Assembly (NCBI GenBank): GCA_039680605.1
Contig: JBDKTA010000063.1
Span: 1-64,000, forward strand
DNA: 64,000 bases
From: Planctomycetaceae bacterium
GTDB taxonomy: Bacteria; Planctomycetota; Phycisphaerae; SM23-33
Reading direction: 5' to 3'
A program made the position numbers and the translations under genes. Positions 2,472 to 53,273 of the stretch are shown piece after piece (the first letter of the stretch is position 1; each line of letters starts with the position of its first letter). Under the pieces are notes generated by a model. The model did no database searches. It saw nothing but the letters and a program-made list of their open reading frames with translations, and was not told where the DNA came from.

Positions 2472-4574
2472 GTGATCAAGAAAGCAACGTTGGCGTTGGC
2501 GGCTCTTGTGCTGATGTTTTTGTCGGCCTCGCCCGCCAGGGCGGAGAGCTGGACGTTCGTCGTGATGTCCGACAGCCAAGGCTCCGCCGGCGACAGCACC
2601 GGCGGCGTAGCGACACGAACGCTGGGCATCGTCATCAATGACATCGTCAAGAACGTCAAGCCCGAGTTGATCATGGTCACGGGCGATCTGGTGCAAGGCG
2701 CCGGCACGGCCGCGGAACTCGAGGGGCAGTTGATGCTTTTTCGCAAGACGATGGCGCCGGCGTACGACGCGAAGATTCCCGTGTACGCGATCCGCGGCAG
2801 CCACGACACCGGGCCTAACGAGACCCGCCCCTGGGCCGGCGGCGTGTGGAACAAGGTCTTTGCCGGTCCCTATGCCATGCCCGGCAACGGCCCTGCCGAC
2901 GAGAAGGGTCTGACATATTCCTTCACGCACAAGAACGCGTTCTTTCTATGCATCGACGGGTACAAGACGCCCAACACGATGGATCTGACGATCGACCAGA
3001 CGTGGGTCGACGCGCAGCTGGCAGCAAATAAGCAGCCGCACGTGCTGGCCTTTCAGCACACGCAGATCAAGAAGGTCACCGTGACTTCAAAGCTCATCGA
3101 CAAGGAAGGCAAGACGCGCACCGACTATGTGCTGACCTTCACCGCCGGCGCCAAGCCCCAGCCGCAGGCGGCCCCTGCGGCGGCGGCGGCCGATAAGGTT
3201 CGCGTGGCGGTCCTGGGCGACAGTCTCTCGACGGACAAGCGTTGGCCCCCGGCGCTGGCCAAACACCTCGGCGAAGGATACGACGTGAAGTGCTTCGCCT
3301 CCGGCGGAGCGACGCTGCTGCGGAACATGGATCCGCGGAATGTCTGGCGCCGCCGCGAAGCGTCCCACGCACGGGAGTTCCGCGCGGACGTGGTGCTGAT
3401 GATGTTCGGCGCGATCGAGGGCAGGCCCAAGGGATGGCCGGGCGATAAGGCGGGCTTCATCGCCGGGTACAAGGACCTGATCAAGATGTTCCAGGACCCC
3501 GCCGGCAAGCGGAAGATATACCTGCTGCTGCCCCCGGCGGCAAAACGCGACTCGTTCGGCGGCGACACGGCTTTCTTTCGCAGGGAAGTCGTACCGGTGA
3601 TCCAGCAGATCGCCAAAGACATGAACGTTGGGTGCATAGATACGCACACGCCCTTCATCGGCCGCAAAGACGCCAACGAAGATTGGGACGGCCTGCATCC
3701 AACCGCCGTCGGCAACGAGATCATCGCCCGCACCGTCGCCAATGAGCTCACCGGCAGTACGCTGGCCCTTCCCGAAAGGCCCAAGGAGCCCACCGCGGAG
3801 GAACTGGCCGCCGAGCAGGCGCGACTGGCCGTCAAGGCCGCCCACGTGGTGACGCTGAAACCGGGCGATACGGTGGAGTTGACGCCGGCCGCCGTGGCCG
3901 ACCCCAAGGGCGACGGCCCCGACGGCAAGGGCAACACCGAGGACGACACGTGGGGGTTCTGGTTCGGACTGATCTTCGGCGGCCATCACCGACTGACGCT
4001 GCCGACGGCGACGCTGTCTGCCAATCAGCGCGCCAACGGCATCGTCGACCTCAACTCCGCCGCCGGGCACCAGAAGAAAGTCACCGGCCCCGTTGCCGGC
4101 GAGCTGCCCAACCCGAATCAGACCAACGGCTGGATCTTCAACACAGACTGGAACGGAAAGTTCGAAGGCTTCTGGGGCGACCTGAAAGCCCCTCAGATCC
4201 TCGCCCACCCGTACGTCGAGAAGAGCAGCCACTCCTCAGTGTCGGTGACATTCCGCGTTGCGGCAGAGGGCACGTATGACATCGCCGGCAAGATCACGGA
4301 CCTGCAGGTTTTCAAGGCGCCCAAGCATGACGGCGTGAGCTGGATCGTCGAGGTGGCGGCAGAACGCGTGGGCCAGTCGGTTCCAGAGCCGCGAGCGGTG
4401 CTCGGCAAGGGCGGCCCGGTGGGCGACAAGGTCGGCCCCGACAGCGCCGCGTTCGAAGTCAAAGCCGCTCCGTGCAAAAAGGGCGACCTGATCCGCCTGG
4501 TCATCAGCCCCAACGACTGGTGGGGCACGGATCTGACTCGCATCGACTACTTCCGCATCACCCGCGTCAAGTAG
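2472..4574 (+). CDS. Secreted mosaic: calcineurin-like phosphoesterase (truncated) - SGNH hydrolase - C-terminal module
   Basis: A 700-residue exported protein with GTG start (AGGGAG 6-7 nt upstream) and signal peptide ending near ARA-ES. Part 1 (about 24-225) matches the first half of the phosphoesterase at 25164-26231: VMSDSQ, VTGDLVQG, IRGSHDTG, FQHTQIK. It stops before the GHMH metal-binding motif and passes through an Ala/Pro-rich linker (about 228-240). Part 2 (about 241-440) is an SGNH/GDSL esterase-like domain with Gly249-Asp250-Ser251 and a DGLHP block (Asp406, His409). Part 3 (about 457-700) is homologous to the stand-alone protein at 26507-27313 and shares the DPKGDGPDGKGN signature. 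The phosphoesterase part is probably inactive; the SGNH part may deacylate a glycan. The gene lies 47 bp upstream of a glycosidase-like gene, suggesting a joint role in polysaccharide turnover (inference). Confidence 0.85.
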   Translation: MIKKATLALAALVLMFLSASPARAESWTFVVMSDSQGSAGDSTGGVATRTLGIVINDIVKNVKPELIMVTGDLVQGAGTAAELEGQLMLFRKTMAPAYDAKIPVYAIRGSHDTGPNETRPWAGGVWNKVFAGPYAMPGNGPADEKGLTYSFTHKNAFFLCIDGYKTPNTMDLTIDQTWVDAQLAANKQPHVLAFQHTQIKKVTVTSKLIDKEGKTRTDYVLTFTAGAKPQPQAAPAAAAADKVRVAVLGDSLSTDKRWPPALAKHLGEGYDVKCFASGGATLLRNMDPRNVWRRREASHAREFRADVVLMMFGAIEGRPKGWPGDKAGFIAGYKDLIKMFQDPAGKRKIYLLLPPAAKRDSFGGDTAFFRREVVPVIQQIAKDMNVGCIDTHTPFIGRKDANEDWDGLHPTAVGNEIIARTVANELTGSTLALPERPKEPTAEELAAEQARLAVKAAHVVTLKPGDTVELTPAAVADPKGDGPDGKGNTEDDTWGFWFGLIFGGHHRLTLPTATLSANQRANGIVDLNSAAGHQKKVTGPVAGELPNPNQTNGWIFNTDWNGKFEGFWGDLKAPQILAHPYVEKSSHSSVSVTFRVAAEGTYDIAGKITDLQVFKAPKHDGVSWIVEVAAERVGQSVPEPRAVLGKGGPVGDKVGPDSAAFEVKAAPCKKGDLIRLVISPNDWWGTDLTRIDYFRITRVK

Positions 4575-4621: not shown

Positions 4622-6709
4622 ATGAAGACGTACCTGAAAGAGCAACGTGGACGCATGCGCTTGGGCAACGGTAAGGTCGAACTGGTGATCGACCGCGCGA
4701 GCGGCTACTTCATAGAAATCCTGAACAGGAAGACCGGCCTGAGCCACAAGCTGCCCGGGACCGGCTCATGGCCTTTCGAGCTGACGCTGGGCCACGACTG
4801 GTGCCCGGACTTTCTGCGAGTCAGTATGCCCGTCGGGGGGAAGGGCATGCAGGCCATGCGTTACACGATCATGGGCGCCCGCGGCGGCAAGACGTTGCGG
4901 ATGACCTACGCGAATCTTGTAACGGTGGCGGGCAACCGCACCGGCGTGCGCCTGGCGGTCCGGATCACGTTGGCCGACGACGCCGAGCATTTCCTCATTC
5001 GTGCATGCCTGACCAATGGCTCGCCCTACCGCGTGACAAAGCTGGCCTGCGGCGGCGGCGAGCTTGTAGCGGCCGCATCGCGCGATGCTGAAACGCTGGC
5101 CGTGCCGACGTGGTCGTATGGGCAGGTCTGGCCAAATCCACATGGGCATTTCACGCAACCTGCGACGTTCGGGTATCCGCTCTTTGGAACGCACTGCGGG
5201 CTGGACTGCGGTTGGATGGACCTCTACGGTCCGGCCGGCGGAATCGGCGTGGGCTACCTGAATCGCCAGGGCATGACCATGCTCTTTAACGTTCAGCAGG
5301 CAGGCGGGGGAATGCACGTCAACTGGCAGATGTTCAACCTTGCCGAGCATCCATTGCGGTTTGGTTCTGTGGGATGCGTGTGCGGGCTGGAGTCGGGCGC
5401 GTCTTTTGAGACCGACGCGTGGATCGTCGCCCCGCACGAGGGAGACTGGCACCGGATGGCGGACATCTATCGCCGCGAGTATGAGCAGGCCTTCCGCGGC
5501 GATTACAGGACCTGGGTGCAGACGTCGCCGGCGGTTCGCAAGATGGATTTCTTCGTGACGTCCGCCCTTGACAAGAAGACCTTCGCCGACGTGCCGCAAG
5601 GCATACGGCGCTACGCCAAAGAGATCGGACTTCTACCGGAGAATATGGGCCTGCTGCTGTGGGGCTCCGGTGCGAACTTCCCCAACTTCATGCCCGACCA
5701 CCTGCCCTGCAAGAAGTCCCTGGGCGGCGACGCCGGGGCCGCCGCCATGTGCAGCGAGCTGCGGGGAATGGGGATGACGGGCATATGCTTCTATGCGCAC
5801 CTGTTCTACAACCATCCCAAAGCCCGCGACTACGTGGCTCAGGCGGACACCGGCTGCGACACGCAAAACGCCAACTGGCTGGAAATCGGCAATGTGGCCT
5901 GCCCCGACTGCAAAGCCTGGCAGAAGCTGTGGGTCGAGAAGTACGCCGCCGGTTATGCAGCCCTTGGCGGCGGCGGGGTGACCCTGGACCAGGGACCGAC
6001 GCAGTACCTGGTCTGCCCACGGGATGATCACCCGCACGGTTCCGACAGCGTCAAGCGCCTCTGCGCTCACGTCAACGGCATCGACCGGATGATCCGCGAG
6101 ATTCGCGAGACCTTCGGCCCTGACGGGGGCATGGTAACCACTGAGGTCGGCAGTGACATACAGACACGCAACGCCGACCTCTGGCAGTCGGCCGGGATGG
6201 GCTTTTATTCGCCGGGAGGGCTGCCTCGACGCGAGATCGTGCGCTACAGCGTTCCCTACCGCCCTGCGATTCTCGGCGAGGACATCGCACGCCTGCTGGC
6301 GCCAGAACTCGTCAACGAGGCCTTGATCAATGGTTTCGTGGCGTATCTGGGCGTCCAGATGCTCACCGAGACGAGTATCGACGGCCGCGGCCGCGGACCG
6401 CTTCAGCGCGCCCTGCGGCAGTTTGCCAAGTTGCGCCGTGCCATGCGCGACGGCAGAGCCCCGGGCTATCCTGAGGGTTTTCGCGACAGGGAGGGGCTGA
6501 AGATTTCAAACGCCGCCATTGCTGCCCGCAGCTACCGCGGCGCCAAAGGCATAACGGTGGTATACTGCGCCGGCAAAGCGGCAAAAGGCACCATAACGGT
6601 CGATCCCTCGGCGCTGGGCTTTCCCCACCTGCCGCGACGGATCATCCGCCTGGATTTGGCCGCCGGCGAGGGCGGCTACGAGGCATTGGGCTGTGATGGC
6701 AAGGGATGA
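4622..6709 (+). CDS. Glycoside hydrolase-like protein (DUF6259-type TIM barrel)
   Basis: A 695-residue protein without a clear signal peptide. Start ATG 4622 follows GGGAAAGGC. The first 260 or so residues look like a beta-sandwich (LGNGKVELVIDRASGYFIEI), as in the N-terminal domains of several carbohydrate-active enzymes. The middle and C-terminal parts look like a TIM barrel with Trp/Gly-rich strand ends (LLLWGSGANFPNFMPDH, GGGVTLDQGP, GGMVTTEVGSD). The Asp of LDQGP and the Glu of TTEVG are candidate catalytic acids by position only. The family assignment is from memory of DUF6259 proteins and is moderate; substrate unknown. It sits 47 bp after the mosaic SGNH gene, probably in one transcript. 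Confidence 0.6.
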   Translation: MKTYLKEQRGRMRLGNGKVELVIDRASGYFIEILNRKTGLSHKLPGTGSWPFELTLGHDWCPDFLRVSMPVGGKGMQAMRYTIMGARGGKTLRMTYANLVTVAGNRTGVRLAVRITLADDAEHFLIRACLTNGSPYRVTKLACGGGELVAAASRDAETLAVPTWSYGQVWPNPHGHFTQPATFGYPLFGTHCGLDCGWMDLYGPAGGIGVGYLNRQGMTMLFNVQQAGGGMHVNWQMFNLAEHPLRFGSVGCVCGLESGASFETDAWIVAPHEGDWHRMADIYRREYEQAFRGDYRTWVQTSPAVRKMDFFVTSALDKKTFADVPQGIRRYAKEIGLLPENMGLLLWGSGANFPNFMPDHLPCKKSLGGDAGAAAMCSELRGMGMTGICFYAHLFYNHPKARDYVAQADTGCDTQNANWLEIGNVACPDCKAWQKLWVEKYAAGYAALGGGGVTLDQGPTQYLVCPRDDHPHGSDSVKRLCAHVNGIDRMIREIRETFGPDGGMVTTEVGSDIQTRNADLWQSAGMGFYSPGGLPRREIVRYSVPYRPAILGEDIARLLAPELVNEALINGFVAYLGVQMLTETSIDGRGRGPLQRALRQFAKLRRAMRDGRAPGYPEGFRDREGLKISNAAIAARSYRGAKGITVVYCAGKAAKGTITVDPSALGFPHLPRRIIRLDLAAGEGGYEALGCDGKG

Positions 6710-25163: not shown

Positions 25164-26231
25164 CTATCGGCTTGGCTGCGCTTGTGCATCGGCAGGGGAC
25201 GCCGGTTGGGCGGCGGCAGGTTGAGTTGTGGGTTTGACTGAGTACTTCACTGCCGGAAGGGGTTCGAATTTGTCGCCGGACTGGAGCATGAACTTGATGT
25301 CAACCGCCGGTCCGTCGACGGTCACCACGGTGTAGCCCGGTCGCTTGTGGCGGTTGATGATCAGGTGCGGCTTGAGACCGGGGATGGGGTTGCCGACGTA
25401 CTTGGCCGGCCAGATATAGAACTTGCGACCGGCCGGCGGGCAGATCACCTGGAAGAAATCGTCATCGAGACTCTTGTTCTGCGGGTCGGCCTGGGTGTCG
25501 TTCAGGGCCGTCACGTTGGCCAGGTGCATGTGCCCGCAGAAATACGTCCGGCCCCCAGCCGCGCGGAGCATGGCCACCAGCGGGTTGCGGATCGCCGGCA
25601 AGTTGTCCAGCGATTCGGTGTGCTCGACCCGCTTGATCTGCGTGTGCGAGAAGGAGAACACGTGCGGCTGGGTGTTGGTGTCGAGCTGCTTTTTCACCCA
25701 CGGCAGATTGAGCGTCATCGTGTCCAGCGCCGAGTAGCAGTCCATCCCGATGAACATTGCGTTCTTGTGCTTTACCGAATAGGTGCAGCCCTTCTCGCCG
25801 TCGGGCCCGTTGGTGGGCATGGCGTAGCGGCCGGAAAACACCTTGTTCCAGACCGCCAGGCCCCAGGGCCTGTACTCGTTGGGGCCGGTATCGTGGCTGC
25901 CTCGGATGGCGTAGACGGGGATGTTGGCGTCATACACCGGCGCCATGGTCTTGCGGAACGTCATCAACTGCGACTCGAGCCCCGCCTCGTCGCCGGCCCC
26001 TTGCACCAGGTCGCCGGCGAAGAGGACCAGATCCGGTTTGACGTTGGTCGCCACGTCTTTGGCCACCGCCCCGAGCGTGCGCGTGCCGACGCCGTTGTCG
26101 TTATCGTCGCCGCCGGACTGGCTGTCGGCCATCACCACGAACTTCCACGGTTCGGCCCAGGCGTCGCCGGATGCCGCCACCACGGCCGTCAGCATCAACA
26201 GACACAGCGGAAGGAGCACCCTTCGGTTCAT
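25164..26231 (-). CDS. Secreted calcineurin-like metallophosphoesterase
   Basis: A 355-residue exported protein (signal peptide LPLCLLMLTAVVAASGDAWA). Metal-binding blocks run in family order: VVMADSQ, FAGDLVQG (GD), IRGSHDTG (GNHD variant), FSFSHTQIK and CGHMHLANV (GHxH). It is therefore a complete phosphoesterase domain (about 25-290), followed by a short beta-rich tail and a low-complexity Gln/Ala/Pro end. The N-terminal 200 residues are closely similar to the start of the mosaic protein at 2472-4574. Substrate unknown. Start ATG with GGAG 8 nt upstream. It lies downstream of the module gene 26507-27313 on the same strand, separated by a 275-bp palindromic array. Confidence 0.85.
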   Translation of the reverse strand: MNRRVLLPLCLLMLTAVVAASGDAWAEPWKFVVMADSQSGGDDNDNGVGTRTLGAVAKDVATNVKPDLVLFAGDLVQGAGDEAGLESQLMTFRKTMAPVYDANIPVYAIRGSHDTGPNEYRPWGLAVWNKVFSGRYAMPTNGPDGEKGCTYSVKHKNAMFIGMDCYSALDTMTLNLPWVKKQLDTNTQPHVFSFSHTQIKRVEHTESLDNLPAIRNPLVAMLRAAGGRTYFCGHMHLANVTALNDTQADPQNKSLDDDFFQVICPPAGRKFYIWPAKYVGNPIPGLKPHLIINRHKRPGYTVVTVDGPAVDIKFMLQSGDKFEPLPAVKYSVKPTTQPAAAQPASPADAQAQPSR

Positions 26232-26279
26232 GATCTATCTCCATACAAGGTATGGCCGTAGCACGGCGTCTCGCCCGTC

Positions 26280-26491
26280 AGTAGCATGGCCGTCCCGGCC
26301 ATGAGTGGCATGGGCGTCTCGCCCATGCTCTTTCTGTGTGGCATGGGCGTCTCGCCCATGCTCCCCGACCGTAAGGTCAGGGACACGCACAACGGAGTTG
26401 TGCGTGGCACCTGTCCGGCCCATGCTCCCGGCATACATGGGCGAGACGCCCTTGCTACTCATGGGCAAGACCTGCCTGCCGGCAGGCAGGT
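26280..26491. repeat. Array of CATGGGCG-type palindromes with embedded 22-bp palindrome
   Basis: At least five palindromes stand in a row: AGCATGGCCGTCCCGGCCAT (26283-26303), GGCATGGGCGTCTCGCCCAT twice (26309-26329 and 26341-26361), CGCACAACGGAGTTGTGCG (26385-26403), and an ACATGGGCGAGACGCCC half. A CATGGGCA/TGCCCATG pair encloses the 22-bp ACCTGCCTGCC palindrome at 26470-26491. The array fills the gap between the phosphoesterase and the module gene. Short ORFs across it are only translations of the repeat. Confidence 0.85.
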
Positions 26492-26506: not shown

Positions 26507-27313
26507 TCATTTCACGCGGGTGAGGGTGAGGTTCTCGATCTTGGTCATGTCGGCGCCCCAGTGGGCGACGGGGTCGAGCACCAGGCGGATGAGCTGCCCT
26601 TCGGCCACGGTGATGCCCTTGGCCTCGAACTCGATGGAGGCGTCGCCCTTGTCGCCGAAGGCTTTTTCGGCGACGGGGGCGGCAGCTTTTTCGCCGCCTT
26701 TGGCCACTTCGACGCGCAGCTTCACGCCGTCGCCGGCGGTGACGGTCATGTCGGTAGCCTTGGCCTTGAGGGTGTACTTGCCGGCGGGGACCTTAAACGT
26801 CATCGCCACTGAACCGGCGGCGGCCTTCTCCGTGTAGGGGTGCATGATGATGCAGTTGGCCTTGGTGTCGCCCCAGACGCCTTCGCCACGACCATCCCAG
26901 TCGGTGGTGAAGATCCAGCCTTCGGTGTCTTTGGGGTTGGGCAGCCACGCGCCGATGGGGCCGCGCACCTTGCCCTGGTGGCCGCGCTTGGCGCGAGGGT
27001 CGCGAATCCCGTTGGCCCGCTGATCGGCGCTCATCGTCGCGGTGTTGAGGCTCAGTCTCATATACGTGCCGGCCGCGTGACCGAGTTCAAACCAGGCGCC
27101 CAGCGTGTCGTCGTCGCCGTTGCCCTTGCCGTCGGGGCCATCGCCCTTGGCGTCGGCCACTTCCGCCGGCGTGGGCGAATATGTGTCGCCGGCCTTGGCC
27201 AGCTTGGGCGTCTGAGTCTTCTGCTCCTGCGCGTGGGTGACCACGCCCGCGGCCAGAACCACGACCGTCAGGGCGAGTGTGCAGAATACCGACCATCTGA
27301 TCCGCGTGCTCAT
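26507..27313 (-). CDS. Secreted protein made of the uncharacterised GDGPDGKGN module
   Basis: A 268-residue exported protein with signal peptide (VFCTLALTVVVLAAGVVTHA). The mature part (about 35-268) is homologous over its whole length to the C-terminal third of the mosaic protein 2472-4574: DAKGDGPDGKGN against DPKGDGPDGKGN, TMSADQRANGI against TLSANQRANGI, GWIFTTDWDGRGEGVWGD, and the closing IENLTLTRVK. The pattern of beta strands and the ending suggest a jelly-roll carbohydrate-binding or lectin-like domain, but no known family is assigned. Start ATG 27313 has AAGGAAG upstream; a longer reading frame on the 5' side is not credible because the signal peptide begins here. The phosphoesterase gene follows on the same strand. 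Confidence 0.75.
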   Translation of the reverse strand: MSTRIRWSVFCTLALTVVVLAAGVVTHAQEQKTQTPKLAKAGDTYSPTPAEVADAKGDGPDGKGNGDDDTLGAWFELGHAAGTYMRLSLNTATMSADQRANGIRDPRAKRGHQGKVRGPIGAWLPNPKDTEGWIFTTDWDGRGEGVWGDTKANCIIMHPYTEKAAAGSVAMTFKVPAGKYTLKAKATDMTVTAGDGVKLRVEVAKGGEKAAAPVAEKAFGDKGDASIEFEAKGITVAEGQLIRLVLDPVAHWGADMTKIENLTLTRVK

Positions 27314-52052: not shown

Positions 52053-53273
52053 TCAGGCGCCGAACTTCTCGAGCTTTCCGGCGTGGGCCAGCGCCAGCGG
52101 GAGCAGCTCGCGGGCGGGGATGGTGCCGATCTGGCCGTGGCGGCAGGCAACCTCGTTAAAGCTGTTGCCGTCGCCGCCGCGCAGGTGCGGGGCCTTCATC
52201 AACGCCGGAACGCCGTGCCAGCTATGGGCCTTGAGCGAGGGCGGCGTCGAGTGGTCGCCGGTGACGATCAGGACGTCGGGGTTAGCCGCCAGCAGCGCCG
52301 GCAGGGCCGCGTCCATCTCTTCGATGCGGGCGATCTTGCCGGCCAGGTCGCCGTCTTCGCCGGTCTTGTCGGTGTACTTGAAGTGGGCGAAGATGAACGT
52401 GTAGTCGCTGCCCTTGATGAGCCTGGCCACTTCGGCGCAGATGTCGGCAGCGGTGGTCGGCGTGGCGACGACGTCCATCCCGACCAGGCGCGCCACGCCG
52501 CGATACATTGGGTATCCGGCGACGGCGGCGGCCTTGAGCTTCCATCGCTGGGCGAAGTTGGGCCAGTCCGGAAACTTGGCGAACCCGCGGGCGAGGATCA
52601 TGTTGGCCTTGGGCTCGTCGGCCAGGATCTTCTGCACCTGCGTGAGGATGTCGTCGACGATCTTTGCGGTGCGCGACGTGTGGTGGGGGGCTCTGACCGG
52701 CGAAAGCGGAGCCGCGCCGACGACCTGGGGGTCGGTCTCGCCGACATTCTCGTCCAGATTGTCGCCGCGGAGCACCATCAACGCGCGGTGCTCGGCTTCG
52801 GTCTCGAAGAACACTTCCACGCCGGCGGGGACTTTGAGCTTGGCCTTGATCTTCGCCAGGCAGGCGCGGTTGACGTCGTCGCCGATGCGCCCGGCGCGGC
52901 GGTCGATCACCTTGCCATCCTTGTCCAGCGTGCAGAAGTTCAGCCGCGCCGCCACGTCGCGCTTCTCCAGCGGGAACTCCAGCCCCAGCGCGCCCAGCAC
53001 GCCGCGCCCGACCTGGTAGACCAGCGGGTCGTACCCGAATAGGCCCAGGTGCCCCGGACCGCTGCCGGGCGTGACCGCCGTGGCCACCGGCAGCGAAAGC
53101 CCCAGCGCGCTGACAGCCGCGAGGGCGTCGAGGTTGGGCGTGCGGGCCTGCTGCAGGGCAGTGCCCTTACCGCCATTGTCGATGTCGCCCAGCCCGTCCA
53201 TGACGAGCATGACGATGCGCTTGTCGTTCTTGATCGCCAGCGAACTGATCAGGTTTCCGTAAACGTCTTCCAT
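52053..53273 (-). CDS. apgM: Cofactor-independent phosphoglycerate mutase, archaeal type
   Basis: A 406-residue member of the alkaline phosphatase-like iPGM family in its archaeal (ApgM, about 400 residues) form. MLVMDGLGDID holds the metal-binding Asp. TPNLDALAAV and GSGPGHLGLFGYDPL contain the Ser loop; in the family GSGPGH carries the phospho-accepting Ser. FIFAHFKYTDKTGEDGD and LIVTGDHSTPPSLKAHSWHG give the remaining His and Asp ligands. It interconverts 3- and 2-phosphoglycerate in glycolysis. Start ATG 53273 with GGAAGGAAG upstream. Heads an operon with the SGNH and GNAT genes (gaps 20 and 10 bp). Confidence 0.9.
   Translation of the reverse strand: MEDVYGNLISSLAIKNDKRIVMLVMDGLGDIDNGGKGTALQQARTPNLDALAAVSALGLSLPVATAVTPGSGPGHLGLFGYDPLVYQVGRGVLGALGLEFPLEKRDVAARLNFCTLDKDGKVIDRRAGRIGDDVNRACLAKIKAKLKVPAGVEVFFETEAEHRALMVLRGDNLDENVGETDPQVVGAAPLSPVRAPHHTSRTAKIVDDILTQVQKILADEPKANMILARGFAKFPDWPNFAQRWKLKAAAVAGYPMYRGVARLVGMDVVATPTTAADICAEVARLIKGSDYTFIFAHFKYTDKTGEDGDLAGKIARIEEMDAALPALLAANPDVLIVTGDHSTPPSLKAHSWHGVPALMKAPHLRGGDGNSFNEVACRHGQIGTIPARELLPLALAHAGKLEKFGA

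Follow-up and report, generated by a model that had tools for sequence, protein, structure and literature searches.

The window analysed here is a 64,000-nucleotide stretch of a Planctomycetaceae bacterium genome, corresponding to positions 1 to 64,000 of contig JBDKTA010000063.1. At positions 2472..4574 of its forward strand, an open reading frame encodes a 700-residue protein in which a signal peptide is followed by a truncated metallophosphoesterase, an SGNH domain and a jelly-roll domain (open frame and Pfam). The frame runs from a GTG at 2472, with the ribosome-binding-site-like sequence AGGGAG just 5' of it, to a stop at 4574, and it has no internal stops. Residues 1-24 (2472..2543) read as a Sec-type signal peptide with an AxA motif before Glu25, and the two intact phosphoesterase paralogs in the genome have an N-terminus of the same kind. 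A gene for a DUF6259 protein (4622..6709, forward strand; PF19773 exactly at the cut-off) begins 47 bp 3' of the fusion gene, and the two are probably carried on the same transcript.

The original prediction described a three-part protein whose outer parts also occur as two separate genes that are neighbours on one strand, and this description holds. Residues 22-208 are 63% identical (BLASTP, E 2e-76) to a 355-residue intact metallophosphoesterase encoded at 25164..26231 on the reverse strand, in which GHMH is present (BLASTP and Pfam). Residues 463-700 are 51% identical (BLASTP, E 1e-66) to a separate secreted protein of 268 residues (26507..27313), encoded 5' of the phosphoesterase gene on the same reverse strand, and an SGNH domain (PF13472) lies between the two matching parts of the fusion. 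Judged by these E-values, the similarity of the outer parts to the two separate genes is far beyond chance. The host assembly, a draft of 5.23 Mb in 72 contigs, contains a single full-length copy of the fusion. No ortholog was found in the 100 relatives searched or by a pattern scan of the genome-contig collection, leaving this genome as the only one known to encode the fusion.

The phosphoesterase part (residues 29-201; 2556..3074, forward strand) matches the calcineurin-like profile PF00149 from profile position 3 to 159 of 191, where the match ends. The Asp of motif I (D34), the Gly-Asp of motif II (GD72) and the His of motif IV (H196) are kept, and motif III reads GSHD (H111), with Ser for Asn of the canonical Gly-Asn-His-Asp/Glu. 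GSHD instead of GNHD, which replaces the Asn metal ligand by Ser, is also seen in both intact paralogs (window 25164-26231; L015:4039-5157). The Gly-His-x-His of motif V, which serves both metals, is missing from the fusion; GHMH stands at residue 233 in both intact paralogs.

How the motif was lost became clear from the intact paralog on contig C67, which is closer to the fusion (81% DNA identity) than the window paralog is. Its match to the fusion comes as two segments, residues 3-225 and 198-236. By blastn, nucleotides 55-606 of the fusion correspond without gaps to nucleotides 55-606 of the C67 paralog (81%), and nucleotides 601-684 correspond to 931-1014 (81%). Exactly 330 bp are missing in frame relative to the C67 paralog, with AAGGT at both break places and the microhomology junction at 3072..3076. 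The lack of GHMH in the original prediction is confirmed, as the motif lies within the 110 deleted codons. The prediction also held that the phosphoesterase part stops after FQHTQIK, which needs correction: the deletion is internal, and the roughly 28 residues past FQHTQIK are the genuine phosphoesterase C-terminal tail, with no new linker in them. This tail (VTVTSKLIDKEGKTRTDYVLTFTAG and the two next residues; 3075..3155, forward strand) was delimited by blastn against the C67 paralog. A frameshift near 3090-3180 that might hide a full phosphoesterase was looked for and rejected, as the fusion DNA does not contain those 110 codons. When the deleted block was used as a query, the two intact paralogs were its sole matches in this genome. 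From the motifs present, the remnant is predicted to be unable to form the canonical two-metal site.

Compared to calcineurin-like phosphoesterases in general (PF00149; the nearest solved structures are tartrate-resistant/purple acid phosphatases, 1qhw), the fusion shares the first half of the fold and motifs I, II and IV but lacks 110 residues that include motif V, and the Ser for Asn in motif III (GSHD for GNHD) is found throughout the local subfamily. As a putative pseudoenzyme, the fusion keeps an enzyme-fold domain without its catalytic residues in an open frame, as pseudoenzymes do; it differs from them in that a single clean deletion of 110 codons, within a protein of three modules, took the site away. 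A literature search found no paper that joins the terms 'pseudoenzyme' and 'metallophosphoesterase'.

Over the 176 codons shared by the fusion and the C67 paralog, dS was 0.64 and dN/dS was 0.19, and over the 27-codon tail dN/dS was 0.27. Taking the window paralog as outgroup, we counted 10 residue changes specific to the fusion lineage and 9 specific to the intact C67 paralog. By these measures the remnant has no sign of relaxed constraint and evolves like the intact paralog. These rates give no date for the deletion, which may be recent, since D34, D72, H111 and H196 are all intact. A structure model of the remnant with the SGNH domain, built from two sequences only, reached a pLDDT of 58.6 and was too poor to use.

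The phosphoesterase tail is followed by an Ala/Pro-rich linker (3156..3191, forward strand) which, in alignments with stand-alone SGNH paralogs, takes the place of the SGNH protein's own signal peptide. The SGNH/GDSL domain itself (3213..3719, forward strand) matches PF13472 at residues 248-416 (E 6.6e-14). It shares blocks I, II and V (Ser, Gly, Asp-x-x-His) with the SGNH/GDSL carbohydrate esterases of that family; S251, G279, D406 and H409 are kept, and with them the catalytic Ser of block I and the Asp and His of block V. Block III differs from these esterases in that the oxyanion-hole Asn is replaced by Ile (GAIE for GTND, I315). Loss of activity does not necessarily follow, because AlgX-like SGNH enzymes are also without the block III Asn (PMC5697884) and SASA enzymes have Gln in its place (PMC9487903). 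The best NCBIfam model for the domain was the AxeA1 acetylxylan esterase, far under its cut-off. The five SGNH paralogs that were compared are partly degenerate, and by its motifs the subfamily in this genome is partly dead. The motifs look complete in a protein on contig C8 that joins SGNH and C-terminal domains as the fusion does. The SGNH protein at 95720 on contig C43 (L016:5667-7118) has lost the His, the other C43 SGNH protein (L017:4482-5954) the Asn and His, and a stand-alone protein on contig C42 (L011:1360-2145) the Ser, Asn and His.

The C-terminal domain (3855..4571, forward strand) was delimited by alignment, an AlphaFold2 model, and Foldseek and VIA comparisons. It had no match in Pfam or NCBIfam and no convincing sequence match in the PDB. 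AlphaFold2 modeled it as a beta-sandwich (pLDDT 81, pTM 0.85) whose nearest solved folds are gingipain adhesin domains, CBM27, CBM61 and CBM4, with Z scores of about 10 that are modestly above background (Foldseek, VIA). The domain shares the predicted jelly-roll fold with CBM27, CBM61 and CBM4 (VIA Z 9-10), but identity in the structure alignments was only 7-14%. We assigned it to no carbohydrate-binding family, because none stands clear of the unrelated adhesin, MAM and ephrin-receptor sandwiches in the VIA list. From the modeled fold we infer that the domain may bind glycans. The domain is rare: it was found in one further genome among the 100 relatives and in none of 392 genomes of the phylum outside its own genome. 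The genome-contig collection contained ten loci (L032-L041), in Planctomycetota and Verrucomicrobiota MAGs, where the domain is a stand-alone secreted protein; at L034, from a Verrucomicrobia MAG, the gene immediately after it encodes a complete SGNH protein as a separate product.

The host genome encodes three other two-domain proteins that combine SGNH and C-terminal domains (two on contig C43 and one on contig C8), as well as four separate C-terminal-domain proteins. A raffinose-synthase-type glycosidase gene lies near the C43 protein at 52541, and Gfo/Idh oxidoreductase genes lie near two other SGNH plus C-terminal genes. From their annotations, the neighbours fit carbohydrate metabolism and seem to point to no one substrate.

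Directly 3' of the C43 SGNH protein at 95720 is a 545-residue open frame (L016:7184-8818) with no Pfam match. Its product belongs to another secreted phosphoesterase family with 14 members in this genome, three of which keep the GD, GD, GNHE, HYP and GHDH motifs. The remaining 11 have lost nearly all of these motif positions, yet they are open frames (L016:7184-8818; L059-L066, L069, L070). On the tree, the eleven metal-less paralogs form one clade (100/99), consistent with a single change. The metal ligands were kept in all nine relatives sampled within the organism's own family and in about 30 homologs from the 392 phylum genomes, two of which have a changed first residue in GHxH. If the metal-less fold had no role at all, it would be difficult to see why a family that lost its metal site should then have expanded elevenfold. 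The original prediction had taken the fusion's dead phosphoesterase to be a binding domain. The fusion itself is real, and as for the binding domain, a non-catalytic role of the remnant is plausible because the lineage has kept and multiplied 11 metal-less paralogs. We would put it at slightly below even that the lineage uses dead metallophosphoesterase folds as exported binding modules, a suggestion that draws on the 11 paralogs after one loss and on the member of a second subfamily that was inactivated by deletion and became fused to an SGNH plus jelly-roll protein, of the type that has one of the 11 as its neighbour.

Where the three modules came from was examined with trees of the shared domains. 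In these trees the C43 protein at 95720 provides the sister of both the SGNH domain (94/95) and the C-terminal domain (97/96) of the fusion. As both domains have this sister, the SGNH plus C-terminal unit is most likely older than the phosphoesterase fusion. A single origin of all SGNH plus C-terminal proteins, as judged from the C-terminal domain, was rejected by the AU test (one clade, p 0.003), which implies repeated gain or loss of this architecture. The original prediction, besides gene fusion, proposed a different route, in which an SGNH gene was captured between an ancestral adjacent phosphoesterase and C-terminal gene and the three activities act on one substrate. The pair in the window does place a phosphoesterase of the same subfamily beside a C-terminal-domain gene on the same strand, an adjacency expected by chance about 0.006 times (assuming an estimated 4,500 or so genes, 7 other C-terminal loci and 2 unfused subfamily members), and a sister relation of the fusion and local C-terminal domains was not rejected (AU p 0.185). 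The genome as a whole, of 5.2 Mb, has 43 PF00149 matches, several of them on the window's contig, and because it is so rich in phosphoesterases, adjacency to such a gene is weak evidence by itself. The local order, C-terminal gene and then phosphoesterase, is moreover the reverse of that in the fusion, and about 275 bp of repeat-bearing DNA separates the genes, which makes the pair a poor direct ancestor; it is probably not the source of the fusion. Several copies of a palindromic element, GGCGTCTCGCCCATG, lie between the two genes at window positions 26265-26450, and the window as a whole has 8 copies with up to 2 mismatches, compared to 0.56 expected. Capture is also opposed by the three SGNH plus C-terminal proteins that already exist and by the nearest relative of each fusion part, which in every case is on another contig. 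The proposal of one common substrate is weakened further, with one site lost, an SGNH domain without its Asn and a third part that is a CBM-like sandwich. We regard this route as very improbable. The reading in which a phosphoesterase was joined to a pre-existing SGNH plus jelly-roll protein and underwent one internal deletion is well supported by the alignments and trees.

Our preferred account, in which we have moderate confidence, is that this joining and the 330-bp deletion produced a glycan-binding protein that carries a non-catalytic remnant. In this account, a relative of the C67 phosphoesterase gene would have become attached in frame 5' of an SGNH plus jelly-roll gene related to that of the C43 protein, and the short Ala/Pro linker would have taken the place of the SGNH signal peptide. 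When the genes were joined, or later, a deletion between two AAGGT repeats would have removed the GHMH strand and its surroundings and, from the alignment, spared the four other motifs and the C-terminal tail. The signal peptide suggests that the product is exported by Sec. What it does there we infer from its parts: it would most likely be a cell-surface or periplasmic glycan-binding protein in which the jelly roll binds polysaccharide, the SGNH domain with its Ser-Asp-His triad may still be a weak hydrolase of esters on acetylated glycan, and the remnant, if folded, would be a non-catalytic accessory binding or spacer module. Against this account, the fusion is found in one genome only (0 of 100 relatives and none in the genome-contig collection), jelly-roll likeness is no proof of sugar binding, and the remnant still has all its other motif residues, which would suit a young deletion.

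The last point is also what a decay in progress would predict, with a recent deletion and a remnant that would contribute nothing to an otherwise functional SGNH plus jelly-roll protein. D34, D72, H111 and H196 would be useless without GHMH but are kept, the substitution rate of the remnant equals that of the intact paralog, as if most of the divergence predates the deletion, and the poor model of the remnant is in line with decay. The frame was nevertheless kept across the deletion, the linker and two downstream domains, and the 11 other metal-less phosphoesterases have been kept without stops, so that we consider decay a possible but rather doubtful explanation. It is more doubtful still that the assembler made the deletion or the fusion. 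An error of this kind might be suspected in a draft assembly with paralogous phosphoesterases when the fusion occurs in a single genome and the junction lies at a 5-base repeat. The flanks, however, differ from every paralog by at least about 19% of bases, which makes collapse of near-identical copies impossible; it is the same paralog that both flanks indicate, the reading frame survives the deletion, and no stray copy of the missing block turns up at another place in the assembly. We therefore judge an artefact improbable.

The fusion is a clear and, in principle, datable case in which the catalytic core of an enzyme domain was lost in one step while the frame of three modules stayed open, and the same genome contains another phosphoesterase family in which a single loss of the metal site was followed by elevenfold expansion. 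The C-terminal domain, which is small, secreted and easy to assay, is a candidate for a new family of carbohydrate-binding domains in Planctomycetota and Verrucomicrobiota. The retention of the damaged domain in the fusion, in a genome where metal-less look-alikes have multiplied, suggests that inactive phosphatases may persist for what they bind and not for what they catalyse. If ligand binding by the remnants is real, the phosphoesterase fold would be added to the enzyme scaffolds known to serve again as binding modules.
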